This document shows, one piece after another, positions 5,586 through 24,984 of a stretch of 64,000 bases of DNA. The stretch's first letter is position 1; each line of letters opens with the position of its first letter. Origin of the DNA: Pisolithus tinctorius (lineage: Eukaryota > Basidiomycota > Agaricomycetes > Boletales > Pisolithaceae); assembly GCA_024663395.1 (NCBI GenBank), contig JANFAH010000020.1, positions 1,054,001 to 1,118,000 of the forward strand, in the 5' to 3' direction. Below the pieces are notes generated by a model. That model worked only from the letters and a program-made list of their open reading frames with translations, made no database searches and was not told the DNA's origin. The position numbers and the translations under genes were made by a program.

Positions 5586-7754
5586 ATGTAGGTTGTCATG
5601 TTATATACCCCGGTACTGAAATTTCACCTATCAGCGACCACTGTAACAATGGGGCTTCACTCTGAATGAAGGGTTGAAATCGGATGCATGCACTGATGAC
5701 AGTCCTAGGTTGGCTTCAATGTCATGTGGACCATTGAAATCCGAGCAAGCCATCGTTGAATGTTTGAATTAAGTAGTATAATAAAAAATCACCAGTACTA
5801 GGAAAGCTGCTACAGAGAGGAGTAGGTCTCTGACTACTGTTTCTGTAGCTGACAGGGACACGAAGCTCACCCTAGCTCTGTTCGCCTGGTCGGAAAATTC
5901 AGATGCCTTGCATCGGGCACCTAGGACCCAACAGAACCCATTTTGACATCACGAGAAATTTTCAGGTGTCTACTGGTGCAACTGACAGTCTATGGAACTC
6001 AAGTATGGTACATAGGTACATATACCAACGCCCTCCGGGCTACAGTCATCGCACCTTACAGATTGTCAGCATCAATATTACCAGGACCATCACTATCATC
6101 ATGACAACATTGACCGCCATCATCTCCATCTTTGTGGCCATCGTTGTCATTGCACAGTCGGAACCATATCAAAAGTTCGAAATCTGTCATTGTGGCTGCC
6201 TATAGTGATCACTACTGTCCAGGAGTTGTGAGCACTTACCCCATCTTGACATGTCCATACCATCATCATCCTAGCCCACACCAAGTTATTGTTGTCATCT
6301 CTTCCCTGCTGTGACTCGCTCCCTTGGCATTTCTATGAGAATGTGTTGCTACCAAAAGTAAATGTAATCATGAAATTACCTCTGTGCACTCTGGCACTAC
6401 TTAATGTACTTGTCTATTCAAGATGGATCTTGAGAAAGGTGTCCTTACATGAGCAAATGTGATCGCACTGTCTGTGAGGGGGTAATTTTGGGGCATGAGA
6501 ACGGAACAGTGAATGTTGGGTTTCTTCCCACAGTGCCCTGAAATCGAATCCAGGGAGTGCAAAGCTGAAGGAATTAGGGCACTAGCTGTTCTGGTTCACA
6601 AGATATTTCAATTCTGAGATGCGAGCTGCAAGACAAGGAAGTGGCAGTGTCACACACCAAAGGTGTTGTGGACATGGTTACAGCTGACTCTGCCTAACTC
6701 GTTGACAAGTTGCACACAATGCCCAAGCATGCAGATGAAGACTAAAGGCCTCATGCATAGAAAGACTGTCAGACGTTAACAGTCATCCTTCGCACAAGAA
6801 CGAGTCATCAGTGCTAAAGAGAAAAGAGGAAGCGAGTTAAGCGCACATTAAAGGTTTTTAGCACCCATGTATGGCATTCTGGTTTTCATTGTATCTCCAC
6901 CATTTCCAAAGATATCGACTCCATTCCCACACTCGCTTAAAGTGCTCAGCCCCACGATTCTTCCTTCCAAATTTGGAGAGGATCCTTGCACCCTGTGCAT
7001 TTCTACAGCACTCCATCTATCAGATGCTCATTTCGCTAAGTCCATCAATCATGGCCACCTCTTCATCGGTCATCTCACTTGTCTCGTTTGCCAGAGACAG
7101 TGGCTATGTATATCTGCCAGGTGTTCCCACCAGCTTCTGTCCTGAAGCCCCCTGGTTCATCCCGTCATTGTCAGCCCCATCTCATCCCATGCAGCTTGGT
7201 CAGTGTGTTCTCCTTGTCAGTATGACTTCCAGAAGGACGTTCTTTGGTTGCCTCAGGTCTGTCACTCAGTTAGAAAGGTCTTATGTGGTCATTTCAGTCT
7301 CCCCGGTTGATGAAGCATATGGATCGTTCCTCCCTGCTCCCTGCACCGTCTTTATTCCAGTCTCATCCATCATTCTTCCCACATTGCGACAGCTGCAGTA
7401 TAATCTACTGTCCTCCAGCCTCCCTGATCGCATTCATGATGAGTATGACATGCATCTTGCCTTCTTACTGCAGGATCCAGCAGAAGACATCCCCCCTTCT
7501 CCTCCTCCTCCATCAGAACCCCATCCATGAAGTTTTTGTTAACTTTGCTGAGAGGATGAAAGGGTGGGAGACGCGATCGCATATGCTCTCATTGCCCCAC
7601 AGACCCCCAATGCCCTAGCCCCCTTTGACGCCTGACTCATGCCCTTCAATTCTGGAATTAATACTTCCCTATCTGGAAACACTGTCCATCTGTCATGCCA
7701 TCTTTGGATCTAGAGATGTCTCTGCCAAGATCTAACTTGCATTGCCACCCCCTA
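5586..7754. other. mostly non-coding; possible relict reading frames
   Basis: No gene is convincing. At 6060-6200 a + strand stretch reads ITRTITIIMTTLTAIISIFV, hydrophobic and perhaps a relict membrane segment. A 219-codon + strand open frame (6871-7530) has no recognisable domain and an atypical Ser/Pro/Leu-rich composition, so I do not call it a gene. Confidence 0.4.
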
Positions 7755-7755
7755 A

Positions 7756-8450
7756 TGTGATATCAGTGCACTTACTCAGTTTCTGACTCTATTTGACTCG
7801 TTCTGTGATATTTTGACTATCCTTGACTCATTCATTGCCAATACTTACCAATCTTCTTTGCTTGCTTACTTTTCATTTCTCACTTACTCATCATGATTAC
7901 TCAGTCCTTACTCATTACTTACCAAGTGTTTGTGCCTTGTTTGTCACAAGCTGTGCTCCCCCCACAGTATATAAACCCCCATGTACTTAGCTACCAAAAA
8001 GCAATCAGAAGCCATTCACTCAGCAGTCAGTCAGTTCTTCAGTGCATAACTCGTTGTCAACAGTTGAGGCTCATTCGGAAGAGTCTATCTGTCTCCATTC
8101 ATATCATTGGTAGTTGAGGCTCCATGAAGGGGTCTATCTGCCACCATCCATCATCTGCAGTCTTATCCACACTTAGTCAGCACTCTTGCTTAGTCATCCA
8201 TCCAACTCCTGCATAACTTGTCATTGACTTGCGCCAGGAGCATGTCTTATCAAAGTCTGTCATCCCAAGTCCTTTCAGCTGAACACCTTCACTCTGTTCA
8301 GCATCCCCCATCCAATCATCACTTGCTTATCTACTCCTGCGTAACTTGTCGTTGACTTGTGCTAGGAGCACCTGCCATTGAAGTTTCCTCCTCTTAGGTT
8401 TCTGCACTCCAGGTTCCACGGAGGCACACCACCACTCACTCTACATTTGT
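7756..8450 (+). repeat. LTR-like regulatory stretch (possible solo LTR)
   Basis: The stretch begins TGTGATATCA, is CT-rich, and has a TATATAAA box at 7968-7975. Downstream the sequence is rich in CAGTCAGTCAG-type motifs and short repeated blocks, as in the R/U5 region of fungal Ty3-type LTRs. No second copy, primer-binding site or target-site duplication could be confirmed by eye, so the right boundary and the LTR call are both tentative. Confidence 0.3.
8206..8370 (+). repeat. two 37-bp direct repeats with internal stem
   Basis: Copy 1 (8206-8242) and copy 2 (8334-8370) differ at only 4 of 37 positions, all transitions. Each begins CTCCTG. Copy 1 ends CAGGAG CA, so CTCCTG/CAGGAG can pair as a short stem. 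Copy 2 has TAGGAG and a weakened stem. Confidence 0.7.
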
Positions 8451-8747
8451 CTATTGTGTTGGTTTTGGTTGGTTTTCACCACCTTTCCACACTTTGACTC
8501 ACAGTGGCAATTTCAAGGTTTTTCTCTCACAGCAAACCTTTCCCGAAACAGCTGTAATACAAGTGTTCAAAATGACTTCACTACCCATCTCTCTCTGCCA
8601 GATTGTCTAAGCAAGAATGGTGACCCTGCGGCACACCAAAGTTGAGCGATGCAGTTCGAATTAGGATATGGACAATGGTAAGAACCTGAAAACTGTTGCC
8701 ATCGTCGTCTGATGACTGAGTGTTTAGAATCGTACTAGGAATCTCTG

Positions 8748-9069
8748 TCACTTTCCATTCTCTACCACCAGTTGCAGCAGTGCTGGGTCCTTCCTGAACA
8801 CCTGCATAACGCTCCTCAAACTATCTCCTCCTCTCCAATTGTGCCTGATCTGTTCCATACTCATCATGCACTTGACTGCTGCTTTTGCTGTGACCAAATT
8901 GTTGTCCTTCCATGTATCCAAGGCCAAGATCACAGCAGATAATGTGTTTGTTGAGTTTGGTACCACTGATATACTTCATGCATGTGGGTAGTATTCCACT
9001 CATCAGAATCTGCAGGGCATCCTTTGAAGAGGAGAATGTCAGGTAGGGGTAAGCGGATACCACCACCAC
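8748..9069 (-). CDS. hypothetical minus-strand exon(s)
   Basis: Two overlapping minus-strand open frames look protein-like: KDALQILMSGILPTCMKYIS (from 9069) and then, in the other frame, NTLSAVILALDTWKDNNLVT followed by AKAAVKCMMSMEQIRHNW and SLRSVMQVFRKDPALLQLVV, ending at 8748. A splice between them near 8950 is plausible. No domain is recognised. Codon quality is better than in the flanks, but the gene limits are not known. Confidence 0.3.
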
Positions 9070-10178
9070 CCTCTGGACTGGTATACTTACAACTCATATA
9101 CTTGCTCTTCAGTCATATAGAAGCTCAAGCTATCAATCTGGGAGCCATTGAACGACAAAGGGTAGTGTGTAGTGTCGTACATATAATGTCAATGATTTTG
9201 AAAGAAAATCATACTGCCTCCCTTACATCGGTCACCGCCATGTCCACCACCTATGCCAACATGCTGAGTTTGCAAGGGGGTTATCAGGGCTGGTTTATGC
9301 TACTGACTCATTTCTCCATGCAAAATGGTACCTGTCACACATCACATCCATCCTGCTTGATTACTGCACCAAAACTCGTTCAAACTAGAGGTAAGACAGG
9401 GCCCAGATTGGCATTTGGCATTCTTTGAGGCCACGAACCTCCACTGGAGGTGGAGGATATCTGTGCATGGGGAACTGCTGACAGAGGTTGTGTGCCTTTC
9501 ATGTGGGTCTGCAACAATATCAGCAGGCCATGCGGGATCGAGGGCAGGGGAACACTAGCAGACATTTGTCGGGATGTCACGAGTGGTGAGGTTCCACTGG
9601 TGTACATGCGTTGGGCATTTTGCTGCTCTTTGCAACTGACAGGTTGAGGAACACCTATTCAGTAGGGAGTGATATGTTGGTGATGCCTGGTGAAGTCACC
9701 CACTCTACTTCCTGCTCACTAGTTTCATGTTGTCATTACAATCGTCGCAATCTCTTGTGCACAGATGGCGATGAAACGCTTAATGCAGCTGAAATGCTAC
9801 CAGATCAATTAAGTCCTAAGACGTATCCTACTTGCCAGCCAACGATCCATCACTAGGCTCTGTAATATTAATTGTCAACTGTTTGCCACAATCGTCACAA
9901 TCTTTGTTGTAACTTGTTCCATTTTGGGGTAATAGCCTTGTTCCATCATAGATTCATGACACGGCGCCGCCGCACACAAAGACATGTACGTTGTACAGTG
10001 ATTCCCACTCTTATCCTTGTTCAAAAGTTGCCACCCTGCCACAATATGAGTTGCACAAGCTGGTATTTCGTTGGCCATGCTCACATCCTTTTCATCTCAA
10101 AGCCCCAAGATTACATTGTACGTCGTCCTCAAACATTTGCAGATATCCACTTAGTGTTGATACCACCAGATTGGAGGG
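9070..10178. other. no confident gene; upstream flank of the CACTA transposase
   Basis: Several short open frames exist on both strands and none has a recognisable domain. The stretch ends at the start codon of the transposase and may hold the 5' part and terminal region of that element. No CACTA terminal repeat was identified by eye. Confidence 0.4.
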
Positions 10179-13100
10179 ATGCCTGCCTCCCGCCCTACTC
10201 TCAAACGATGTTTTTGCGAAGAATGCATCGAGAAAGGTGGCACAGACAGCCACAGGAAAGCAAGAGGTGTTCTTATGGAGGCTCATTTTATGCCAGCGCA
10301 CATGAAGTGAGTTCATGAAGAACATGCCACCCAGTACTCACTACCTGTCCAACAGAGCACCATAGATGCCGTAGACTCTGTCGCTGGGCACCTCTTTGCG
10401 CTTACCATTACTGATGATGGTCCGGACCCTGGTACCACTGTCAGTAAACTGTAGCACTCCCACACTGATTTTCAGGCCATGGGTCCAAGCAGCAGCACGA
10501 TAAGCAACCCGCCCAAGGCAATCCCTTTAGATGATCTTGCCAGTAGTCTGAGTCACCTTACCCTTCATTCCCCTGGGCCTTCTGTCGCATCCCCCCCCAA
10601 AGATGCCCTTGAGAGAGAATGGCTCTCGCCTGACTTGCCTGTTACTTCCACTACCCCCACTGTATCTGGTTATTGCAAGTCGTCAAGGAATGGTGATCGT
10701 CACACCATCAGAGCTCTTCAGATCCTTAGCAATATTGAATCTTGAATCCATTGCTGTCAGTGGCTCCTCCTCGATTCATCAGACCTTGGCTCTCTTGATG
10801 TCCAGCATGAACTTGTCGTTCTATGCAAAGCAATTGATCAGGTTACTCGTTCCACAGAGTTGGTGGCTACACGCAAAAAGGCTTTATCTGCATTGTTGGA
10901 TGAGGTCCAATCCCAGGCAAATGAATGGGTGCCTACACCTTTGCCTCGAGATCCAGTTGAGATTGACACAGGCGAGTATCTGGATGTCATGATTTTTACC
11001 ATTGCTGATGTTTGATTGTACAGGGAAGCAGTACTCACCACCAATCGAGCGAATGGATGTGATCACCCAAGTTGCACTATTGCTAGGAGTCGTGTGCAGT
11101 ATAATTTTTGGTGTTGGCACTCCGGGTGCTAACTTTATTATGAACGGACTTTCCCTCTTGCTATACCTTGCCTTTCAGAAGCCGGATGGGACACTGAGTC
11201 ATTCGCATGAGACTGTGCTGAAGCAAATACTGTCGACCATCAGTGGCGTCTTGTCCAGGTTCCACCTCGCAGCCAAGACAGTGATGTATGCTGTCTGCAG
11301 CTGCCATTGCCTCTATGCTCCCACCTTTTCACTCGGATCGGATGTCCCCACTTATCCTTCCTTCTGCACTCATTTCCCTTCACCAGAGAACCAATGTGGC
11401 GAGTTGTTACTCAATACATGAGCTGAGGGGAATCCTTACCTGAAGAAAGTGTTTGTCTACCATGACTTCAAAGACTACCTCACAACACTACTGTCTCGAC
11501 CAGATACTGAGGCAGTGATGGACTCTGCGTGTGATGATTTACATGCCTCATCCTCGCAACCACACTTTGTGAAGAACCCATTTGAAGCCCAGTTCCTTTG
11601 AGAGTTCCATGGTCCTGTGCCTGGGAAGCATTTTGTTGATCGTGGAGATGAAGGTCAATATGCGTTTGCACTTCATGTGGATTTCTTCAACCCTGGAGGT
11701 ATGAGTGTACAGGGACCAAGTGTGTCGTCTGGGATCATTTCGATGGCATGTCTCAATCTGCCTTTGGATGTGAGGTACAAGCCAGAAAATCTTTATCTTG
11801 CTGGCATTATTCCAGGCCCCAAACAACTGTCACTCGAAAATCTTAATCATTATATACGACCACTGATGAATGACCTAGTTGCTGCTTGGGATTCTGGTAT
11901 TCGCTTTTTGAGAATGGCAAATCATCCTGGCGGACAAGTTACACGCAGTGCCATTGCCCTTGTTGTCTGTGATCTCCCTGCCTCTCGCCACCTTGCTGCT
12001 TTCGCTGGAATTGGGAGTCACTTCTTCTGCACTGTTTGCAGCTGCTACCACAAGACAAATTACAGTCAGACAGACTTCAACAACTGGATGGTGTGTGACA
12101 AAGACAAGCTCCGCCAATATGCAGAGCAATGGAGGGATGCACATATGTCTTCCACATGCGACAGGATATTCAAGGAATATGGTGTTCACTACTCAGAACT
12201 GTGGTGTTTGCCATATTGGGACCCCACTCACCAACTCATCATAGATTTGATGCATTGTATACTTGAGGGCCTTGTTCAACATCATGTGCACAGTCTACTT
12301 GGGTTAACCACAGAGACTTCTTCCGCTGCGCACTCCGTAATTCCTGCATTTCACTATGAGTTCAAGTGGGTCATCCCTGGTACCCCCGAGGTGCTGTCTA
12401 TGACAACGAAGGAGATCACACAAGTCTTGGCACTTCACAAGCTTCTTGTTTCACCGGTCCCATCATATGATGACAACACAGCTGTCGAGTCCTTCATGAC
12501 TGACTTGCAGGAGTCGCTAGTCCACAAAAATGCTCGCCCTCTGAAATTTGTTTGCCAGAGCTTAGGGTGTGTTCCCTCAAAGAGTGGTAAAGTTCTCAAA
12601 GCTGATTATGCCAAGGCGCTTGTTGCTTGGGTAAGTTGTTCCTGATCTTACTACATGTCCTGCAGCTAATGCGATGTATACTCAGCAGCTGCAGATGCCC
12701 TTGTCTGCGTTACAGCAGCGACCCAGCAAGTTTGCCAAGTCAGACATGTTGAATCAAGTTTGCAAAGTTATTCATGATGTCGTGACACCGTCATGGTTAG
12801 GCTCTGTTCCCAGCAATTTTGGCGATGTGTCCACTGGCACTATCAAGGCAGATGAATGGTGCTCACTGATCACGATGTATCTTCCCCTAGCGTTGATCAA
12901 TCTTTGGGGTACAAGTAACGACTGTTCCAATGATGGCACAGACCTTAAGGCTGTTCTTGATCACACAGTGGATCTCGTTTCTGCCATCAATCTTGCCTGC
13001 ACTCGGACCATGAGTACTTCACGAGCTTCTGCATATCGTGCCTATATTGCCAGCTATGTTGGAAAGCTGAAGGAACTCTATCCTACACTTGATGCACAAC

Positions 13101-13947
13101 CTAATCACCACGTGTCGTTTCACATATATGATTACCTCCTACTCTTTGGACCCGTGCAATCATGGTGGTGCTTTCCATTTGAGCGGTTGATTGGGGTGCT
13201 GCAACATCTTCCAACCAACTACCAGACAGGTTTGTGATCGATGGATTAAGCCGTAGAATTTGAAAACTGAATCTAACAAACAGGAGAGCTGGAGAAAACA
13301 ATGATTCAGTCATATCTGAAGGCTGGAAGACTTCGTAGTTGGTTGTCTCGACCTTGCTGCCCCCCTGCTATCCATGAATGTAAACTTCTTCTTGATCATG
13401 CATACAGTACTACAGATGGAGGTTGGGAGACCCATGGAGACGCATTGGACACTGGAACGCAAGTGCCTGACAGTGCTAAGCTGGTAGTGATGCCGAAGGA
13501 CTTGTTTGAACTAACCCAACAGCGACATGTAGTCCTACATGCCCACCTCAAACTTGACAACACTGTGTACAGCAGGTTCTTGACTCATGACGGCAACTTG
13601 CTTATTCTATTCTATCCAAAAGGCGACTACAAATGCTCACCCATCCCTGGCACTATCAAGTATATCTATGGTCATGACAGGGTATTTGTCTTTGCTGTAC
13701 TGCAATATTCCTTGCTGCCACATGCTACAGAATCAGATCCATTTGCTGCCTACCCCCACTTTCCCGCCAAGTCGTACTCTTCCACACTCTCAAACCACTT
13801 GGAAACTGTCGAATCATCGTGGGTTGTCAGTCACTTTGCCAGGTGGGCTGTCGCAGATGATCACATCATCATGCTCTCTCTTTGTTGGGTGAGCAATTTT
13901 GTCCTCTCACCCAAGATATTTCCATTAACTCTTTCATGCAGGACTGA
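10179..13947 (+). pseudogene. CACTA-type transposase (tnp2 / Transposase_21), broken by TGA stops
   Basis: Start MPASRPTLKRCFCEECIEKG shows the Cys-rich N-terminal motif of this family. Exons: 10179-10306, 10358-10439, 10476 to about 10980, about 11023-12630, 12686 to about 13207, about 13285-13888, 13942-13947. The catalytic core includes DRGDEGQYAFALHVDFFNP with the first Asp, then LYLAGIIPGPKQLSLENL and a later CLPYWDPTHQLIIDLMHCIL with the second Asp region. The end is a short exon encoding Asp-stop after LSLCW, as usual for the family. Three in-frame TGA codons interrupt it at 10743, 11419 and 11599. The last lies in FL*EF, where relatives have Arg. No frameshift is needed. It would have cut and pasted the element from the nucleus; this copy cannot make a full protein without readthrough. 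Confidence 0.85.
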
Positions 13948-14280
13948 TCTGCAAGCTTCATGTAGTATAAAAATCTGGTTGTCATTGCTGTTGTTGACAG
14001 AAATTGGGCGCTTGAAGTAAAATGATAGTGATTTTGGGCGACCAGAGGGCGATGGGTGGGTGATTGGCAGGTGATGGGCGGGCAACCAATGGGCAATTCA
14101 TATAAACTGTACATAATCACCTTGTTTACAAGGTCACTCCACCCCAAAAATGAGACGCTTTTTTCGACATCTGCACATTTCCCCCCAATTCCACTCCACA
14201 TGACAAATGCCCTGCTGCAGTGCGTGAATCATGTGAGGTCTACATCTCAGGATGAACGACTAGGCTCCAATCGTCTGTAG
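13948..14280. other. intergenic between CACTA and Helitron
   Basis: G-rich repeats of GGGCGATGGG/TGATGGGCGGG type occur at 14035-14095. The Helitron 3' terminus (CTRR preceded by a hairpin on the minus strand) should lie here or within the last CDS flank. I could not identify it with confidence. Confidence 0.35.
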
Positions 14281-17200
14281 TCACATGAACTCAACCAATC
14301 TGTATCCACTATTAGTTTCCAAACGTCTGTATACTGCTGCTGAGCTCTTTGTCGATTCCCACCATTGCCTCGTGTCCTCATCCATTTTCTGCAAGCGTTC
14401 ATCCTCCTTCCATAAGTGTTTGCTGGGGTGTTGCATGAACAGTCGCTCATCGAAGTCTCTTAAAAGGCGGATTGTGTCCTGGCCTCGGCTATGTGACAAT
14501 GCCACATATGTGTTAAATGGTGTCAGCTGCCCAGTAGGTGGTGTGCCGATGTTGACGATGCAGTGTTCTAGAGTCTGCGCTTGTGCATGATAATCCGTAA
14601 AAGCATAGGCAGGTGTTATCGGCAACTGCAATTGGGATATTGTTGATCAGTTGCCAACTCCTGTTGTGATGGTGAACATTCTACAGATAGGCATCACCGG
14701 CAGTACCCCCCGCATGCAATCCTGGTAGAGTCTTGGCCTTGGTACGCTTCATCTCCACAAGCACATACAAAGGTGGGTATTGCAGTTGAATCCTATTGTT
14801 CACAGCGTTATTGGCACACTCCCTTGGGTCAAGCACGATATCAACCACATGGCCTCATGTGCCATTTGCCATGTCGATATCGGTTGCGACGTTGAATGTG
14901 ACCATCACATCCATGCCAATGGCAATGTCCACCTCATCCGACAGTCCTCCACGCTCAAGTCGATTGCATCCCCATCCACTTTTTGGTTTGGCAGTGACAG
15001 TGAATTTCTCTGGCAAGGTGAGTGCCCGACCTCCTATGGTGTCCAGAGCAGGACAGCTGACGAGTGATATACCTTCCATGTTCGCTCGTTCCTTCGCTGT
15101 CATCAAATTCCACTCCATCCACACAGCATGACATGGTGTCACTAACACTGCATCTTTCCAAGGCGATGAACTGAAGTCGGTCGGTGGACATGCTGCACTT
15201 TCCAACACAAGGCCCCAAAGCATGTTTATATCATGTTTGGCGCAGCTGCTGTGGCATACGTGATGCAGCAGATCACACCACTCAGCATCGGTGACTCTAA
15301 CCTGAGTCTTCAGGCACATGACAACATCGAACTGTTCATAAATACATCGACCCACGAGTTCCTCATGCGTATCCTTTTCCACTTGACACAGCCAAAATAA
15401 TGGCGCGGATGCTTTGGTGGCCACTGGTGGGAATTGATGAAAGTCTCCTACCAGAATAATGTTCACCCCCCCGAACGGATGGTCTGTTGACATGGCATCT
15501 GTGCCTGTTCACATGTGACATATGATGTTGGACACCTTGGCCAACAAAGCTCAAGAGACCATCGACATTTCGTCAATGATAAGATAGCTTTTGTCTTGCC
15601 AGTATTCCTCTAGTCTTTTCATCATTTGAGCTGATTGTTTACCACCATTCAGCAGTATCATGCCTGTCACCCTGACATCAGCCTCAGCATCCATTGCTGT
15701 GAGTAACCGTACATATGTTGTGCAATGTCTTCCCATCGATCACTGAGGCAGCGATGCCAGTGTACGCCACTTTCACAAGCATCCCTTGTATACCCCGATG
15801 AGCAAAATTCTCTGTGATGGTTTGAATTGTCCTCAATTTCCCAACACTGCCTTCCCTGGGTATGGTCATATGCAATTGATCCAGACACCTTCCCATGACA
15901 AACTGCTGTAAGTGCCAATCGATAATGTTGTACGCTTGCTGTTGATCATCTAACAAATCCTCGATGTTGTTAGGCTTGAGTGACAGCTCCATGGTGGCGA
16001 GTTGCGCAAGCATATAGGCGCTTCCTACTTGGGGGCCTGTCATGCCGTCATTATCCACCACGTTGCCATGATCCATATCCTGCTCAGCCTGCTCTGACAT
16101 CTCCATCATGCTACCAGGTACACAGTCCAACATGGCTCGCATTGCGACCATCCAATGTTCCAGTTGAGGTACGTCCTCTCCCATAGCCACTTGACAGGAA
16201 TAATTCATTGATCGCTGCATCACACCACTTGCTGTGAACACCCCATACTGCAGCGCTATGGCGATAGCCTGCTTAGCATGTGCTTGCTCTTGTGCAGAAA
16301 GTTGATCACGTTTGAAAGTGGCAAGATCAGTCTCTGAGAGACTTGCTGTCCAGTCCTTGGTTTCTGATCTGTCCTCAAAGGAATCATCGACAATGTCTGC
16401 AAGTTGACGATCTCCTACCGGCGAGTGGTGTTGTTGTGTTTTGCCTGGTATTGATGCTGTTTTTCTGGCTGTTTTTGAGTCATAATAGTATTGCAGGCCG
16501 GCCAACACATGCGTCTCCCATGGTGTATTGGAGGCCTCCAAATGTTCGAAGGCCTCACTCCATCCCTCGTCACTGCTCTTCAGACTGGCTCCTATTCGCC
16601 ATGGCTTTAACAAGGCCAACATACACGCGCAGTAGAAATCATAAGTGCTGCTGTCATCATGGTGGGGCAGCCATGGCCCAACTATTTGGGGCAGGGTATT
16701 ATGTCCTTTGGCTCGGCAAACACGGTGGTGTGACTGTGCCTTGGGGTGATCATCATGGTAAGGTGAGTGCTTGTGTGCAGGCCGTCCCTTGGTAGGAGAT
16801 GTTCACTGATTGCGGTTCACATCTGTTGCAGTGTATTGTTCCTCCCATGTATCACACACAAATGCAAGAAGCGATAGATCGTCCAATTCTGCACCGCGTT
16901 GGAGATAGTCCTGCATTTGGGTGCATGTGTATAGCTCCCCTTGCCGACTGCACAGTAACATGATGACATCGTTGTTGTCGTCACCATTTGTGCAGATGTT
17001 GTCATGACCTGTTGAGGGGTATGAGTACCTGCTTACACACATATGTCAGTATGCATTCCATCATGCCATGCTGGTGACAGTTTTGCTGACCTATCTGTGG
17101 ACGCCATCAAGAACTCAGGATACAACTCTTTTATTGTGCTGAATAACAGCCCTGTGTACAAAGCCACATAATTGTGCGATGTAAAGGCATCACCGTAACC

Positions 17201-20200
17201 CATGAGGTACGACACGACCTGTGGTCCTGACAATTCAGCTTCGTGGTTGATCATGTTGATACAGCAGTATATCAACAGGTGGTTGCGTTCGCACACATCA
17301 TCGTACTTTGGGTTATTTATATGATAGGGCAGTGCTGATGCCATTAATGCAGAAAGGTTGTGACTTTTCTTCTGTTTTTTGGCGGCATATGCTGTGATAT
17401 AGAACGCGACGTCTTTGGTGTCCGCACCATTGGTGTTGATTTTGAGGTCATTGTTGCACCGCATTGTCATCAGCAAGGCTGGGCAGTATGCATTTATATA
17501 CCCATGCAACTGCCATGGACCCCAGTTCCCTCACTCGTCAATGTAGTCGTCACCACTCAGTGGCCAAGGTGCTCTTCATTTGCAAACCAGTCCATCATGT
17601 GTGACATGAAGACACATCACTCTGGAGCATGTATGAAGTTGCTGGGACCTAACCAATTGTCACTCAATCTCATGGGAGCCCTGTCACCACCCTGCAGTAT
17701 GTGGATCATGTGGTTGTGAATATGCGAGCTGAGGTGCTCGGGGCATTGTTTTCAGGTCGTTGAGATGCGTGCAGATATTCATGCGAATATAGTTATGGAT
17801 GGTATCCTGGAAAGACTCTTGTTGCAACAATGCCTGCATTTTGTTAGCGTTTGGAGTGTTCGTGAGCCACAAGAGCATATGGACATGAAGTGTTCCCCTC
17901 CCCTGTGCCTCCACCACCCCAAAATAACCTGCCACCCGTCCAAGCATGCCCACCTGGCTGTGGACCTTATTGCCCATGTTCTGGATTCCGAAGAGGGTCT
18001 CTAAAACAGTGTGTATGATAAAATGAAAGTATCGAGCTGCTGCATAAGGATTTGCGGTGATGTTTTCTGCACATCGGTTGCTATCAGGGCCGAGGTGCGT
18101 GTTGAAATTGTTCAAATCTATGTTTTCACCTGCAAAAACCTGTGCAATAGGGTCATGGATGTCAACAGGATTTATAGTCAACCAAAGCGAGGGCCCTCCA
18201 AGCATTAGACAGGTACCCCAGATCATGCTGTGATAGCTGGCCCATGTGTTATCCAAGCCGATCACACGTCCATTCACCACCATGACATGACAACGCAGAG
18301 CCCGCACTCGAGTGTTACTGATCGGCTCATGCCATGCCTCCTCCACCGCTGCCTGCTTTAGATCAGCCACTCTGATAGACAACAAGGCAAGCATATCGCG
18401 TTCAAAGTCCTTCCACCTCATTTGAAGACGCACAGATTGCATGGTCTCTCGCTTTTGCATAAGAGCGAAGACCACGAATGGAAACGAATGGTGTGTGGCG
18501 AATCGACAGTCATGATACTGCATTGCCCATTTACAATGTTCTCTCAGACTAAGATTCACTGGATATTCGGCCTCGATAGCTCCCCTGCTGTAGGGAAACA
18601 GCACTGGGAATGCTGCACCGAGAGGATTGCACATCATGTGGGACTGCATTGATGGGGGGAAGTCATTGATTGGGGTATTGCCATGGCACACGACATATCC
18701 TCCTTCCTGGGTGTTATTGTTGAAATTGGCAAGTGCCTGGGCCATCAACTCAGATGTGGGCACCCTGGTCAGCTCGACATCTGCCACTCCGAGGACATGT
18801 AACAGGGTAACATCTCCATTATCTGTCTCATATGGATGACATCGCTGTTTGCTTCGCATGTTTCCCTGACGTACCTTCGCTCGCAGGAGCACCATCGGCG
18901 TCACCATCCTCTGTACTTTGTTCGCTGTCCTCACCCGCCATTGGTATGTCATTCTCTGTGTCTATTTCAGCTGTAGAACATATGTCATGCCTGTTTCCAA
19001 TGAGGTCATTAAATGCCGACGTCTTACCATCGTCCACCATGTAGTCGGTCATCGTGTACCCCTCTCTCTCCCTAACTGCCACCTCCTCGCTATCTTGATA
19101 TCGGATCATTGCCTCAATTTCTGAAGGTATGCCATCCTCTGGCAGAGTCATGACACAGTCGTGGGATATGGTGATGTCACTATAGTTCTCATTGTTTGCT
19201 TGCAGCCATTTCAGTGCCTCGAATACTACATCCCATCGGACTTGAAACGTGTGAGATAGCCAATCTGTAGGCAAGTGCTTTGTCCCCACCAATGTGATTG
19301 CCAAGACACTGCTCAACATCTGGACAGTCTGTGGCATCAATCTCCCTTTGATCATATCCACAACAGTGGTGACGTTAACTTCATACAGTGTCACATTCCC
19401 TGCCATGGCGCATTGCAAATGGCATGGGTTTTGAGAGTGATGGGCGTCTCTTGGATATAACTTGAATACATAGCACTGTGGATAGTGACGCATGACTAAC
19501 AGGGTCTCGACAAAGTTGAGCTTGCACAGCGCCAATGGTACCTCGCCAATCCACAGGTTGTTATTCAGTGCGTATTTGGGCATCTGATCTGCACACATGG
19601 CTTGCTGACATTCATGGCATACCCAGCCTTTGCCGTCTGCCGCTATATGTGACCCGTCTATGAGAAGACCGTCCCACAACTTGCATGCCAGATGTGCATT
19701 GGCTGGGGTCAGATGACATCAAAGGTTGGGGAGGTCTTTCATGACCACCAATTCTCCTGCTAACGCTGTCAGATCTGCTTGTTTTCATCTCGACCCCTGA
19801 CTTACCTTCTTTACACAGTTGCTCATGCACACAGATAACACACACCACATTTGCAAGCGCCTCGTTATTGGTAGCATCGATGAAGGCTGCAATGCTGCGT
19901 TGCTGTTGTTCAGCTGTTGGCAACTGCATATATTGCGTGCACATATCGTGATGTGAGTTGTGCACTTCACCATCAGATTCCCTTGCTCTGACATCTTCAG
20001 TCTTTTGGCACTGTTTGGCTCGCCATCGCTCCTGTCGGTTCTCCTTCGCTTTATGCTTGTGCTCAACTGTGGCTCCTTCCTTCACGGTAGCTGCAGTTTG
20101 GATCACCTCATGCATATTCAGCAGTAACAGATCAATTGCGGGACGCAGTTGCACCCATGTTCACAAATGCTTCGGCAGTGTGCCTGCTGGAAGGCAGTCA

Positions 20201-20241
20201 TAAAGTTCCTGTCGTGTCAGGCGTCCCCAGAGGTCGCTCAT
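14281..20241 (-). mobile_element. Helitron (autonomous-type, inactivated)
   Basis: One RepHel coding unit fills the interval and defines a rolling-circle Helitron on the minus strand. The element itself must extend somewhat beyond both ends. The 5' TC terminus is expected right of 20,241, perhaps within 20,242-20,400, and the 3' CTRR terminus left of 14,281. Neither terminus nor the A|T target was fixed. The neighbouring CACTA copy is on the opposite strand and separate. Confidence 0.8.
14281..20241 (-). pseudogene. Helitron Rep-helicase (RepHel) with nine in-frame TGA codons
   Basis: Start MSDLWGRLTRQELYDC at 20241. Order: N-terminal coiled/basic region, CHECQQ zinc-like motif with NLWIGEVPLALCKLNFVETL (DUF6570-like), then the Helitron Rep domain with the HUH motif GRGTLHVHMLLWL (about 17,880) and the two-tyrosine motif FYITAYAAKKQKKSHN (about 17,390). 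A linker follows, then the PIF1-like helicase with MTIPREGSVGKLRTIQTITE as the Walker A region, SYLIIDEMSMVS (Walker B), ILVGDFHQFPPV, and YVALSHSRGQDTIRLLRDF as motif VI. The end is TGA 14283-14281. Introns are short, e.g. 18823-18874. Premature TGA codons begin (plus coordinate) at 20161, 19719, 17684, 17660, 17576, 17531, 15551, 15509 and 14855. No TAA, TAG or frameshift is needed. Walker A is degenerate: relatives have GEGGVGKS. Confidence 0.88.
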
Positions 20242-21053
20242 CTTCCCTGTGACTCCGGTAATACCTTGCATGCTCGGTAATATCCTTCGACAAACTCCTC
20301 TTTATTGCACATCCATCATGTGGTCCCCTATTCCCTGGGCTTTAAATGCAAGCTACCCTGTTAAGGGGGGGGGGGGGATTCTAGTCTTTGCACAGAGCCT
20401 CCATCAGGTCACATGTCTGCTTTGAACCCCCTTCGCAGCTCATCGTCCAGGGACATCAATACATCCACCACAGACCATGCTGATGTGTTGTTGTCAATCA
20501 TTAGCCACGACTCTCCTCCATCTTGTCAAGTACGGGATGTCTGGGTTGAGGCCGGACTGGAGACCGAAGTGGGCGCAAGGCCGAGGGGTTGGGATCAGGG
20601 GGGGAGTTGAAGGTACAGATAGTTGGACTGATTGGACTTAGCGACTGAGGATACAGCACCATTCCCTTGCATGGGTCTCAGTCTGAGTCTGAGGCTGAGA
20701 TGGAGTTATCAGAGGTAACTTAGTTGATTTCAGACTGAGGTCTACAGGCTGAGTATCTATGAGCTTATATACTAGAAACAACTATAGTATGGAGACTGGT
20801 AATGCTGGTCTCGCAAGGATTGCTAAGACGATTGGTAAGACAAGGATTACTAATGTATGACTAAGGTAGCAGAGACCAGAACAGAGTGGACCAGGGACAA
20901 GACCGGGCAGAGCTTAACCAAAGTGACAGACACTGCAAAGCAGTGTCTACCACGCTAGACCAATTAGAGATATGGGACAGGCGAGGCCAAGGCCGGACTA
21001 AGTGAGTGTGAGGCCAAGTCCGGCCAGGGTCGAGGCATGACTATGACACATCT
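20242..21053. other. non-coding, repeat-like
   Basis: A run of about 14 G begins at 20367. From 20,600 the sequence is composed of short imperfect repeats (CTGAGTCTGAG, GACCAGG, AGGCCAAGGCCGGAC and AGGCCAAGTCCGGCC). This suggests an LTR or decayed element, but no boundary or partner copy was found. Confidence 0.4.
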
Positions 21054-21089
21054 TCAGCGTCTGTACTGGAAAATCTCAAAAACAGTACT

Positions 21090-22059
21090 TTGGCTATTTA
21101 TGCTGCCACACCAAATTTGGCCAGTCGCACTGAGTTTTTCTTCGGTGGCACCACCAGCAACGTCGCCATTGTGAAAGGCGACTCTGACGATGTCACAGAG
21201 TTGGTGCTCAGTGGCATCTTCGAAATCGACTGTCAAGGTTTCTTTATGGCTCCTGAGGGCAGTTACAACCCCAGGAACGGATTTGGCTGCGAATTTTCAG
21301 AGACCAAACTCACATGCAACCTTCTGGCCGTGCAGCGAGATGCTGTATATAGCACCACACAGCAAGACTTTCCCCACATCATCTCGAATATCAGGTCGTT
21401 GGAAAAGCTCGTGCCCTTGAAAAAGGGTGAGACCCTCCTCTCATCCATCCAAGAGAGTCGTGGCATGCCTTGCATCTGTCTCAGCCATGCTTTGTTCACT
21501 GTACATGTTCTTACAATCCTGCAGCAATGGCTTGACTGTATCTGATGACACCATCTTAAACATAGAAAAAGGACAATGACGATGACCCCGACAGCATCGC
21601 CCAGAATGGTGAGGGTCTCCATTTCTTTCATGGTCTGGGCACTCAACTGCATGCATCAGAGGATGCTACCACAGCATGGCCCATGCCAGATGACATCAAA
21701 TATGTGCTTGGTTGTGCTGCCAGCACTCACTACATCTCACCTCTCCCTGCATTTGACATCCATGGCACACCCATCCTGCCTGTTGACTACGCCCGGCTGT
21801 TAAGTGGTGCAATCATTCAGGTGCATTTCGCCCTGTTACACTTCTTCATCAAAGGTGACAGAAAGTCAATTTTTACCACATCTCTGTGGGAGATGTGCGT
21901 GCTGTGTACCCTGCAGTGTGGTCCTGTCAACCCCCTCAAATGCATGCATGAGCGGGCGCTGAAGATGAATCCTGGTAATAAGAAGTCTCGTCTGGTATGC
22001 CTCCCACACATGCGCACTGGGTCATTCTGATCTCACTGACCTCCCTTTTCCAGGAGTAA
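21090..22059 (+). CDS. uncharacterised Agaricomycete family protein
   Basis: Exon 1 (open from at least 21,060) reads YAATPNLASRTEFFFGGTTS and LVLSGIFEIDCQGFFMAPEG. It is joined to exon 2 by an intron from 21,426 to about 21,565. Exon 2 carries MPDDIKYVLGCAASTHYISP then LPAFDIHGTPILPVDYARLL and IQVHFALLHFFIKG. A final intron (from about 21,995) leaves Glu-stop at 22054-22059. I recall close relatives, with a VKYVLG..THYISPLPAYDIHG core, as a multicopy Agaricomycete family; its function is unknown. No start Met lies in frame near the beginning, because a TGA precedes the frame about 70 nt upstream. The true start may be in an earlier exon, or the copy may be truncated. Confidence 0.5.
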
Positions 22060-22666
22060 ATCGCTGGAAATTGTTACAGGCGCCAAAGGGCTACACTATG
22101 CTGTCATTAACTTAAGTAGTTTCAGCTTGTAAATAAAACACACGCATGAGATCTGCACTTGTCACTATACGTGGGGGTTTTCCTTGGTGGGGCTGTGCAT
22201 GGATTCGTCACAGCCATGAGCGCCTGCCATGTGAACACTTGGAACCGTCGATACCCATTCCTGCTTCCAACATTGACAGTATAGATAACTGGTTATTGAG
22301 CTCTGATGATATGCAAATCCCTGGTGGCTAAATGTGTAATGAGGTTAACAAATGGTGCATGTTCAGTGTCTCCTGTGTGCTAATGCTTGACATATCTCCC
22401 ACTCTAGCTGAGGTGTATAATATGTGGGTGTGTCTAATTGCTGGGGATCCTGCAGTGGCTGTCTTGGGGAACCCTATGAAGTGTGGATGCATGTGATGTC
22501 GTGAGAGGGGCGACCCTGTTGCAATGGGTTCAAAGTCTCCTATCTCGCATTGGTCTTCAAGCTACCTGCACTACGCTATGTCTGCTGTCCATCTAAAAAT
22601 CTTCCATGCGCTGGTAGGTTGCAGTGTCACTCGTTGTTCACATGTTGCAAACACTGATGTGATCTC

Positions 22667-23026
22667 GTGCAGGTTATCATGAGTTCACTCGCAGAAGAGG
22701 ATGTGATTTCTACACAATATGAAGTTTGGGGCTTCCTGTTTGGCCCAACATCAGGCCCCCACCGTTTGAATGTTTGGGTGTCTGACAATGATAACATCTG
22801 GATCTCGGGTTCCCAGTTCCTGTTCGCTGCAGATGTTGAGGTCGAGACGACCTGCATGGAAGTCCGTGGGAGACTGTATGTCGTCTTTTTCAATTTGGCC
22901 CACCATCAGACAGAGCATCAAAACGCATCGTATGTCTTCGTGAGAGTGTGGCCTGCACATTTGACGCCATTGAACATTCACGCAGAGGATGACCTGCAGG
23001 ACATCCTGCGTGTCTTATTGGTGTAA
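22667..23026 (+). CDS. hypothetical protein (exon)
   Basis: The open frame begins after a good acceptor (CTCGTGCAG) and reads MSSLAEEDVISTQYEVWGFL, GPTSGPHRLNVWVSDNDNIW, then SGSQFLFAADVEVETTCMEV and RLYVVFFNLAHHQTEHQNAS. It looks like genuine beta-rich protein, but I do not recognise it. It ends at a TAA overlapping a GTAAGT, so it is probably spliced onward to about 23,075. Upstream exons in 22,060-22,650 are possible but not resolved. Confidence 0.4.
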   Translation: MQVIMSSLAEEDVISTQYEVWGFLFGPTSGPHRLNVWVSDNDNIWISGSQFLFAADVEVETTCMEVRGRLYVVFFNLAHHQTEHQNASYVFVRVWPAHLTPLNIHAEDDLQDILRVLLV

Positions 23027-23304
23027 GTATTTCCTGCCTGTGCACTCTCTGACCACCCTCATGTGCCTTTTCAGGTTGGCTAATCGCTTCCTGGCTGTTA
23101 GGGGTTCAGTGGAATCAGGAGTGTAGTCCTCTCCATGACTTACTATACAGTATTCTCAACCTTGCCAATAGAGAAATTGTCTCACTCTGCCCTTACTATC
23201 TTTAGTGCGATCGACCTCATCTGCCCCTCACATGCCTCAACAGACACGTTAGGGGGACTCCTTTTACCCCTAGTGGGCTGGAGTATTTATTAAGTGACAG
23301 CATC

Positions 23305-24268
23305 ATGTCCTCTCACCTATCTACCATGTATAGGCTCCCGCTCGAGATCAAATGACATATCCTTGGCTATTGTAACATTCAGGACATTGCCAACTTGGCA
23401 CAGGCCTCTGCTGTGCTGAATGGGTTAGCTTGGGATTTCATCCAGCACCGTCTGTGTCTCTTGACCAAGCCATTTTTCAAGAACACTGAGACCCTCCTTG
23501 GCATCTTGCGGACATGTGATGCAGTCGTGTCTGGTTCCTGTGCTCTGCACATACTCTTGCCTGCAAACGAGACTTGTTGGATTCTGTCGGACCTCGATAT
23601 ATATGTCTCTTGCCATCACATGGCTTGCCTCTCTGTGTCTCTGCAATGTGAAGGTCGGTGCATCTGCGATTGAATTGTAACTATGCAGCGCTCACCTCGT
23701 TGGCACAGGCTATGTCATTGTGCGCCAACAAACGGTCAATGCAGGCCCATATGGGTCATCTTCCATTCGTTTGGTGGTGTCGTTTGCCAATGACTGCCAG
23801 TCAATTGATGTCATCGTGTCCTCCACCGCGGCTGCCATGTCTCCCATATTTGAATTTCACAGCACCGCCATGATGAATTTCATCAGTGCCAACCACATCT
23901 TCTGTGCATATCCAGCACTGACCCTCCATCTCATGTCGTTGGTTAATGCAGGACCTATATACTTTGAGCCATTCAGGTTCAGGACAATGTGCACCCTTGA
24001 GAAATATGGTGCATGTGGCTTTGTCTTGGAGGCATGCCAGGATGTCCATGGCATATCTTGTTTGTGTCGATCGATGCCTCAGTCGATTGCTGACCATCAT
24101 TGCCTGTGGGTTAATATGAACATGCTGGGGTCTGTGTCAATGTCCCTTGTTAAGGTTCTCGACTGCTTGGGGTTCATTGACTTGATCTGGCTTTTGGGTG
24201 GGTATCTGTGTGGGGGTGTGTATCCCTTTATCCATAGCCAATGTTTCCTGATCGAGGACAATTTGTGA
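23305..24268 (+). pseudogene. F-box plus nucleotidyltransferase-like protein, one TGA stop
   Basis: Exons 23305-23653 and 23709-24268. The N-terminus MSSHLSTMYRLPLEIK then (stop) HILGYCNIQDIANLAQAS is F-box-like. It is followed by VVSGSCALHILLPANETCWI and LSDLDIYVSCHH. That spacing, GSxxL followed by DLDIY, resembles the GS-(x)n-DxD signature of the nucleotidyltransferase fold. The second exon has SSIRLVVSFANDCQSIDVIV, then FEFHSTAMMNFISANHIFCA, plus LEKYGACGFVLE, regions I recall from a large Agaricomycete family. The in-frame TGA at 23353-23355 sits inside the F-box. A start downstream of it is possible but would lose the F-box. Function is unknown; ubiquitin-linked recognition plus a (possibly inactive) transferase fold is an inference. 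Confidence 0.6.
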
Positions 24269-24984
24269 GTCTCTGCTGGCTGCTCACTGTGGACGTGTCT
24301 CTGATTTAACTTAGGCATGAGCTGTTGGGGCCTCAGTTCCTTGGCAGTCAAGAGTCTGCTTAGACACAATGGTGACCTCACACAAGTCTGTCTCAGATGT
24401 ATACTATCTGTTCCTGGGGATACATCGTTGTCGGTTGCCAAATGAGGGCTGATTGTACATTAATTTATCTTGTTTTTGTGGGTTTGAATATCACGCCACG
24501 GTGTCAGTTTCATGTGGCGCATGCCATGGAGGCAGCACTCCGGTGTGGTAAACAAGGTGCCTGCCAGTGGCGCTGGCCATGTTCTAGTACTTTACATTTC
24601 AATCAATGTTTTGTCCTCATCCCAAACTTCAAAATTAGGCAGAGTATTTATTGTTTGTGCATATTTGGAATCTTGGTCAATACACGAACATAGTTCATTC
24701 TTGATGTTTTGTTGAAGTCACAATGTGAAGACGAAATCGGAAGTTTGCATGCACATTCAAACCACTACCAAACTTGAAGCTAAAATTGACATTCTGATGC
24801 CATCGATACATGTGTGTAAACTTGAAGTATTGGTAAACATCGAGGTGTTCACGAAAACTTCAAGTTTCGCCTTCGAAAAATTGTTGAATTAATTCTCAAG
24901 TGTAGTCTTTACATTTTCTACTACATTAAGACCTGTCCTTAACTCTCCAAAATCCGTTGTGATGCGTGGACGTTGGTATTACTC
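24269..24984. other. AT-rich intergenic, no feature seen
   Basis: The sequence is AT-richer than its neighbours, with many stops on all frames. I see no gene, RNA or structured repeat. Confidence 0.5.

Follow-up and report, generated by a model that had tools for sequence, protein, structure and literature searches.

C-to-T decay of transposons is on record for several fungi, and against that background we examine a block of decayed transposons in Pisolithus tinctorius, an ectomycorrhizal Boletales fungus. Amselem et al. 2015 describe CpG-signature C-to-T changes in Basidiomycota transposons together with Masc2/DNMT1-type methyltransferases (PMC4352252). For Tricholoma matsutake, the available text reports masc2 homologues and no rid or dim2, leaves open whether true repeat-induced point mutation (RIP) acts, and repeats, at second hand, that RIP is absent from Agaricomycotina (PMC6980582). 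For Rhizoctonia solani AG8, TGA is given as the primary nonsense product expected of CpG-biased hypermutation (PMC4014442). Here, we analysed a stretch of 64,000 nucleotides (contig C20:1054001-1118000, hereafter the window) and searched the 92.5-Mb assembly from which it comes. In the window, a Tnp2-type DNA transposon is split by a Helitron, and genes of both are interrupted by premature stop codons, nearly all of them TGA. We propose, with a probability of roughly 80%, that these are dead transposon copies decayed by methyl-CpG deamination, which gave nearly all-TGA stops. The demonstrated part of this reading is CGA in the sister copies, the symmetry of the strands, the specificity for CpG and the confinement, within the window, to the transposon block.

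The elements and genes concerned are the following.
9001 to 14117, plus strand: left part of a Tnp2-type (CACTA-like) DNA transposon with six near-complete sister copies at 93-96% identity and a CpG observed/expected ratio (o/e) of 0.43; 9001 is the limit of the compared sister loci, not a proven transposon end.
~10275-10970, 11020-12630, 12665-13234 and 13292-14017, plus strand: four exons of the transposase gene (PF02992, E=9.5e-8; relatives; sister codons), whose true start possibly lies further upstream than 10275.
14118 to 24588, minus strand: Helitron inside the Tnp2 element, with limits taken from its junctions against uninterrupted sister Tnp2 sites.
14338 to 20299, minus strand: RepHel gene of the Helitron with DUF6570 (PF20209, 4.6e-36), Helitron_like_N (PF14214, 7.6e-33) and PIF1 (PF05970, 4.8e-12), drawn also from periodicity and 47 relatives.
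14711, minus strand: a run of G differs in length by one base, shifting the RepHel frame; the difference is absent from 3/3 close copies compared and thus window-specific.
21051 to 22027, plus strand: small reading frame or frames, conserved across Helitron copies (codon periodicity; codon counts in nine copies including the window), with no Pfam match.
23326 to 24265, plus strand: F-box gene carried by the Helitron (F-box-like PF12937, E=1.5e-4, under the gathering cut-off; 34 relatives; sister codons).
24585 to 24961, plus strand: right end of the Tnp2 element; sister copies diverge into different flanks at 24961.

For the exons we relied on transposase relatives (120 listed of 223 proteins), 47 RepHel proteins and the codon periodicity of diverged Helitron copies; the F-box frame was set from 34 relatives. 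The original prediction had named 13 in-frame TGAs, and all 13 hold TGA on the strand assigned to them, in frames backed by intact relatives and periodicity. The list was incomplete, with 16 premature TGAs in all (10308, 16803 and 14647 added). They fall in the transposase (10308, 10743, 11419, 11599), which additionally carries a TAG at 10452, in RepHel, where eleven were found (20161, 19719, 17684, 17660, 17576, 17531, 16803, 15551, 15509, 14855 and 14647, each given as the lowest coordinate of its codon), and in the F-box gene, which has a single one at 23353. Among transition routes to a stop, TGA has a share of 37% (71 of 192 one-step routes, counted on one sister RepHel copy), against which 16 TGA and one TAG yield a binomial P = 1.4e-6. 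The earlier statement that no TAA, TAG or frameshift is needed fails on the TAG and on position 14711, across which intact RepHel relatives are continuous in another frame and where the window is one base longer than 3/3 close copies; if the assembly is correct here, this is a frameshift. Otherwise, frame changes between the listed stops are mostly introns common to the copies, and near 17751 the window lacks 15 bases present in 3/3 close copies with the frame kept. Four affected genes had been announced and three listed; the small Helitron frame at ~21.05-22.03 kb shows no premature stop over the counted codons. In 21.4-22.2 kb, frames 1 and 2, of which one is TGA-rich, were considered as further broken coding sequence and rejected, as periodicity favours another, open frame.

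The previous state of the interrupted codons can be read from other copies in the genome. Codons were counted in 10 copies for RepHel, 7 for the transposase, 11 for the F-box gene and 9 for the small frame, the window included, after dropping gapped or unaligned copies or codons, the 20524-21048 insert and copies not covering a gene. For each of the TGA sites (16/16), CGA occurs in one or more of the other copies in the genome, and close copies (CA-CF, HA, HB, HC, HI and HM, where covering) show CGA, TGA or CAA only, with TGG in none. Since these are the states of a decaying CpG, they support a CpG origin of the TGAs. At 17576 CGA is found in one copy and diverged copies have AGA, likewise Arg, while at 23353 CGA is found in one copy only, with CGG in three diverged copies and TGG in three. 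The expectation that relatives have Arg at the stop sites is therefore clearly borne out by sister copies and only in part by distant homologues, among which many sites vary: with gaps counted, Arg is frequent at 11599 (95/120), 14855 (38/40) and 17576 (38/43) and rare at 17531 (1/43), 11419 (9/116) and 23353 (6/22), and Lys is most frequent among distant relatives at 15551 and 15509. Tabulating ancestral codons, as had been suggested, thus returns non-Arg at most sites among distant relatives, and it is the close copies that settle CGA.

At the 77 codons for which CGA is found in at least two further copies, TGA occurs 14 times in the window, CAA 19 times, CGA 31 times and another codon 13 times. 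TGA and CAA being about equal, TGA is neither kept nor avoided, and both strands behave alike. Over the four reading frames, the aligned copies including the window hold 90 TGA, 4 TAG and 3 TAA, which are cells with common ancestry not removed and not independent events. Some of the seven non-TGA cells are doubtful as coding, namely two TAA at 23305, which precede the F-box start indicated by relative P0168 (86% identity over 97% of the query, aligned from 23326), and two TAG of copy HD (18830, 17066) at drawn exon edges. Counted over 1201 codons, two of the six close Tnp2 sisters have zero in-frame stops, and one of these two is also free of exon length changes relative to the window.

Base composition changes close to the element end. 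The segment 1-24 kb has a CpG o/e of 0.44 and a TpG/CpA of 1.51, compared with 1.01 and 1.11 for 52-60 kb, so that the depletion and the accompanying excess, which the original prediction had proposed to compare between these segments, are confined to the transposon block in the window. The best single change point was located as follows.
24838, no strand: best single change point for CpG versus TpG+CpA within 15-40 kb, with a CpG share of 0.13 before and 0.26 after.
The element ends 123 bp beyond it, at 24961. For comparison, the loci of the methyltransferase genes discussed below have a CpG o/e of 0.95-1.07.

Differences between copies are likewise dominated by CpG. The CpG-type share is 0.85-0.95 in 21/21 pairs of the Tnp2 element and 0.87-0.93 in 4/4 closest Helitron pairs, dropping to 64-74% in same-clade pairs involving HC or HI and to 22-39% in diverged pairs, the low share of the latter arising because non-CpG changes caught up. 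C-to-T changes are concentrated on CpG and equal on both strands, as methyl-CpG decay predicts. The ratio of CpG to non-CpG transition rates amounts to 51-91 for the 11 pairs of the outer element that have at least 15 non-CpG transitions and to 40-322 for its remaining ten pairs, with only 1-4 of them each. It reaches 102-139 in the four closest Helitron pairs; of three pairs that involve HC or HI, the two HC Helitron pairs give 27 and 37 and the third gives 83. With respect to sequence context, ACG is changed most (0.235 of cytosines), followed by CCG (0.209), GCG (0.166) and TCG (0.137), figures pooled over 8 non-independent comparisons; a TpCpG preference as in Microbotryum was considered and discarded, the order being reversed with TCG least mutated. 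Together, CGA in the sisters at 16/16 sites, the CpG depletion and the CpG-dominated spectrum uphold the earlier proposal that the stops arose from CGA by a C-to-T change in a CpG.

The bias extends beyond the window. Among the matches listed in six-frame searches of the genome, stops inside Helitron_like_N comprise 124 TGA, 3 TAG and 3 TAA (124/130) and those inside Tet_JBP 61 TGA, 8 TAG and 1 TAA (61/70), compared with 46 TGA, 21 TAG and 27 TAA (46/94) for protein kinase, a host-family baseline whose stops are expected mainly from introns read through. The excess of TGA over the kinase is significant for both families (Fisher P = 3e-16 and 2e-7, respectively); all tallies were counted by hand from listed rows and include haplotype duplicates. 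Near-identical matches on the contig pairs C3/C59, C5/C84 and C20/C144 suggest a partial second haplotype in the assembly. It should be added that Tet_JBP, a family of 5-methylcytosine oxidases, is abundant in this genome, with at least 150 domain matches, many of them with in-frame TGA.

Genes for CpG methylation are present. A PF00145 search gave three matches in two distinct genes, one of the DNMT1 and the other of the DNMT5 type. The DNMT1-like gene matches DNMT1 (E=2.7e-20), and the DNMT5-like gene, with an SNF2 domain downstream, matches the chain of PDB 7r76 (E=1.9e-73), deposited as Rad8 and presumably Cryptococcus DNMT5. DNMT1-RFD and DNMT5 have been named the CpG maintenance pair of Basidiomycota (PMC13297926). 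With these enzymes, transposon CpGs would be methylated and the 5-methylcytosine would deaminate to T, probably passively rather than driven by an enzyme, and a methylated CpG would decay to TpG, or to CpA through a change on the other strand. CGA is the sole codon that a single CpG transition can turn into a stop, and the stop is TGA, which would render premature stops in such elements nearly all TGA.

Lost repair was considered as a cause of the high CpG rate and rejected. PF03167 (uracil-DNA glycosylase) gave no match, a null result due to split exons, since TIGR00628 then recovered UNG exons at two places and again in what appears to be a second haplotype (best E=5.7e-18, all under the whole-protein curated cut-off). 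TIGR00584 gave one weak TDG/Mug match (E=1.3e-5), and HhH-GPD matches are also present.

Several observations weigh against methyl-CpG decay as proposed here. The TAG at 10452 is TGG in 6/6 close sister copies and Trp in 8/13 aligned relatives, and hence appears to have arisen from TGG by a non-CpG change. This leaves the explanation intact. The rate ratio of ~50-140 in most pairs with at least 9 non-CpG transitions lies above the level in mammals, where the CpG transition excess is roughly tenfold; judged by the literature listings, nothing on CpG mutation rates in mushrooms turned up. TG/CA double-decayed sites deviate at least 1.8-fold from independent expectation, in either direction, in 6/18 pairs (pairs with an expectation of at least 5 were taken). 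Finally, CpG loss is not a uniform clock, as shown by the window Helitron. Its CpG loss of 0.93 is near the 0.89 of its older host element, although it has 8 other changes in 7059 sites compared with 18 in 4702 (P = 7e-6), and its private CpG-type to other changes stand at 232:8 versus 154:18 in two sisters (odds ratio 3.4, P = 0.004). Sister Helitrons HA (loss 0.30, 6 other changes), HB (0.28, 12), HE (0.27, 15) and HF (0.26, 16) lost about a third as much. A first count of private changes, based on T-to-C calls in single copies, was misleading because sisters share decayed CpGs, and it was replaced by a recount with CpG-capable sites set apart.

These points can be read in favour of an active, RIP-like, repeat-directed CpG mutator working in the sexual cycle, with TGA stops as a by-product. 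The very high rate ratio, the excess in the window Helitron and the sharp confinement of CpG loss to repeats would all suit such a process, and so would the large spread between copies: the Helitron copies HI, HC and HA have a CpG o/e of 0.04, 0.47 and 0.86, and at non-CpG sites HI and HC differ from the window to the same degree (0.0275 and 0.0278). However, the same-strand runs expected of a processive event are not seen (P between 0.19 and 0.88 in 13/14 tests, P = 0.034 in one), and loss is spread approximately binomially along the element, with a dispersion of 0.61-1.32 of binomial and a lone value of 0.10 that rests on two blocks. CpG loss in the Tnp2 family moreover rises roughly with non-CpG changes: for CA, CB, CC, CD, CE, the window and CF, private non-CpG changes in the outer element number 1, 2, 2, 4, 3, 18 and 24, and CpG loss is ~0.12, 0.05-0.11, 0.15, 0.11, 0.18, 0.89 and 1.64. 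No RID-type gene is among the three PF00145 matches, in a six-frame, exon-by-exon search that may miss split genes. We regard a RIP-like mutator as unlikely. A RIP-like Pisolithus defence of its own kind within Agaricomycotina, aimed at CpG, disfavouring TCG and acting copy by copy, is a correspondingly tentative idea; if true, it would explain copies with an o/e of 0.04 beside equally diverged richer ones as well as the excess decay of the window Helitron. Uneven CpG loss would be accounted for by locus-dependent methylation and equally by episodic mutation. The absence of strand runs and clustering favours passive loss, and on these sequence comparisons passive methyl-CpG decay is placed ahead of a RIP-like process. 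Nearly CpG-free sequence, in the aligned parts, is found in L010 (on G000:C134; o/e 0.04) and in copy CG (L018 and L019, on G000:C10; o/e 0.00).

UGA read as a sense codon, by readthrough or recoding in the elements, would agree with the predominance of TGA in the window genes, where a single in-frame stop is of another kind. The original prediction had rated it the less likely option, and the Arg codons of the sister copies refute it: CGA or CAA stands at the same codons with no fixed sense codon, TGA is matched by CAA among decayed codons, two close Tnp2 sisters do without stops, and the window genes also contain a TAG and a frameshift, making recoding extremely improbable. Ordinary mutation that happened to yield mostly TGA is even harder to credit, given the binomial result for 16/17 TGA and CpG-type changes at 85-95% of differences between the closest copies.

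The outer element contains a Tnp2 transposase (PF02992), as in CACTA (En/Spm) transposons. Six sister Tnp2 copies run uninterrupted from window position 14117 to 24585, and because they continue directly across this joint, the Tnp2 element is split by the Helitron. Terminal inverted repeats that open with CACTA are a mark of CACTA transposons; the right end of the Tnp2 element reads inward CACAACGG, of which a 19-base probe found no second copy in the window at up to 3 mismatches. The inner element encodes a protein with Rep (Helitron_like_N) and PIF1 helicase, as Helitrons do. Helitron hallmarks are TC...CTRR ends and integration between an A and a T with no duplication of the target. Within its end regions (14118-14140 and 24550-24588), CACCTTGTT is found near one end and AACAAGGTG at the other, a 9-bp inverted pair, and a small palindrome lies at the end at 14118. 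Between the two gene blocks of the Helitron lies a further repeat.
20524 to 21048, no strand: 525-bp dispersed repeat with at least 22 matches to that part alone at 88-91% identity.
It is absent at sister Helitron loci spanning its place, e.g. L024, L026 and L031. The F-box stretch adjoins RepHel sequence at 8 other loci (L024, L025, L026, L028, L029, L031, L032 and L034), and the gene contains a GSxxL...SDLDIYV stretch without Pfam match, which we take to resemble a nucleotidyltransferase motif. Window 6648-8503 is a 1.86-kb high-copy repeat, likewise CpG-poor, with at least 43 copies at 90-95% identity.

For the reading of other fungal transposons, these results imply that an all-TGA pattern is not to be mistaken for UGA readthrough, and that sister copies, rather than composition alone, mark such stops as a fingerprint of CpG decay. 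With copies graded from a CpG o/e of ~0.9 to 0.04, P. tinctorius renders the question of passive versus active CpG loss in mushrooms testable. RIP in Neurospora prefers CpA, leading to TAA and TAG stops, and leaves long same-strand runs within a copy. The window elements differ from it in both respects, with no CpA preference, 90 TGA versus 7 TAA/TAG, and no same-strand runs in 13 of the 14 tests, and they share with it C-to-T decay of repeats that produces stops (summary in PMC4352252). In Rhizoctonia solani AG8, genes and repeats are hit alike, as far as its available text goes (PMC4014442), in contrast to the confinement of loss to the transposon block here. Tricholoma matsutake is closer, being an ectomycorrhizal agaricomycete with CpG-biased C-to-T changes in repeats, though the accessible part of that study contains no gene-by-gene analysis of stops (PMC6980582). 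The cases of Amselem et al. 2015 resemble ours in the CpG-only signature, the transposon targets, a DNMT1-type gene and the explanation by deamination of methyl-cytosine; they differ in belonging to Pucciniomycotina and in the TpCpG preference of Microbotryum, TCG being least mutated in the window elements (PMC4352252). The process is thus already known in fungi and is not a new reading of the genetic code. With both CpG-signature decay and the prediction of TGA in print (PMC4352252, PMC6980582, PMC4014442), the P. tinctorius block adds one more clearly resolved case to a known kind.

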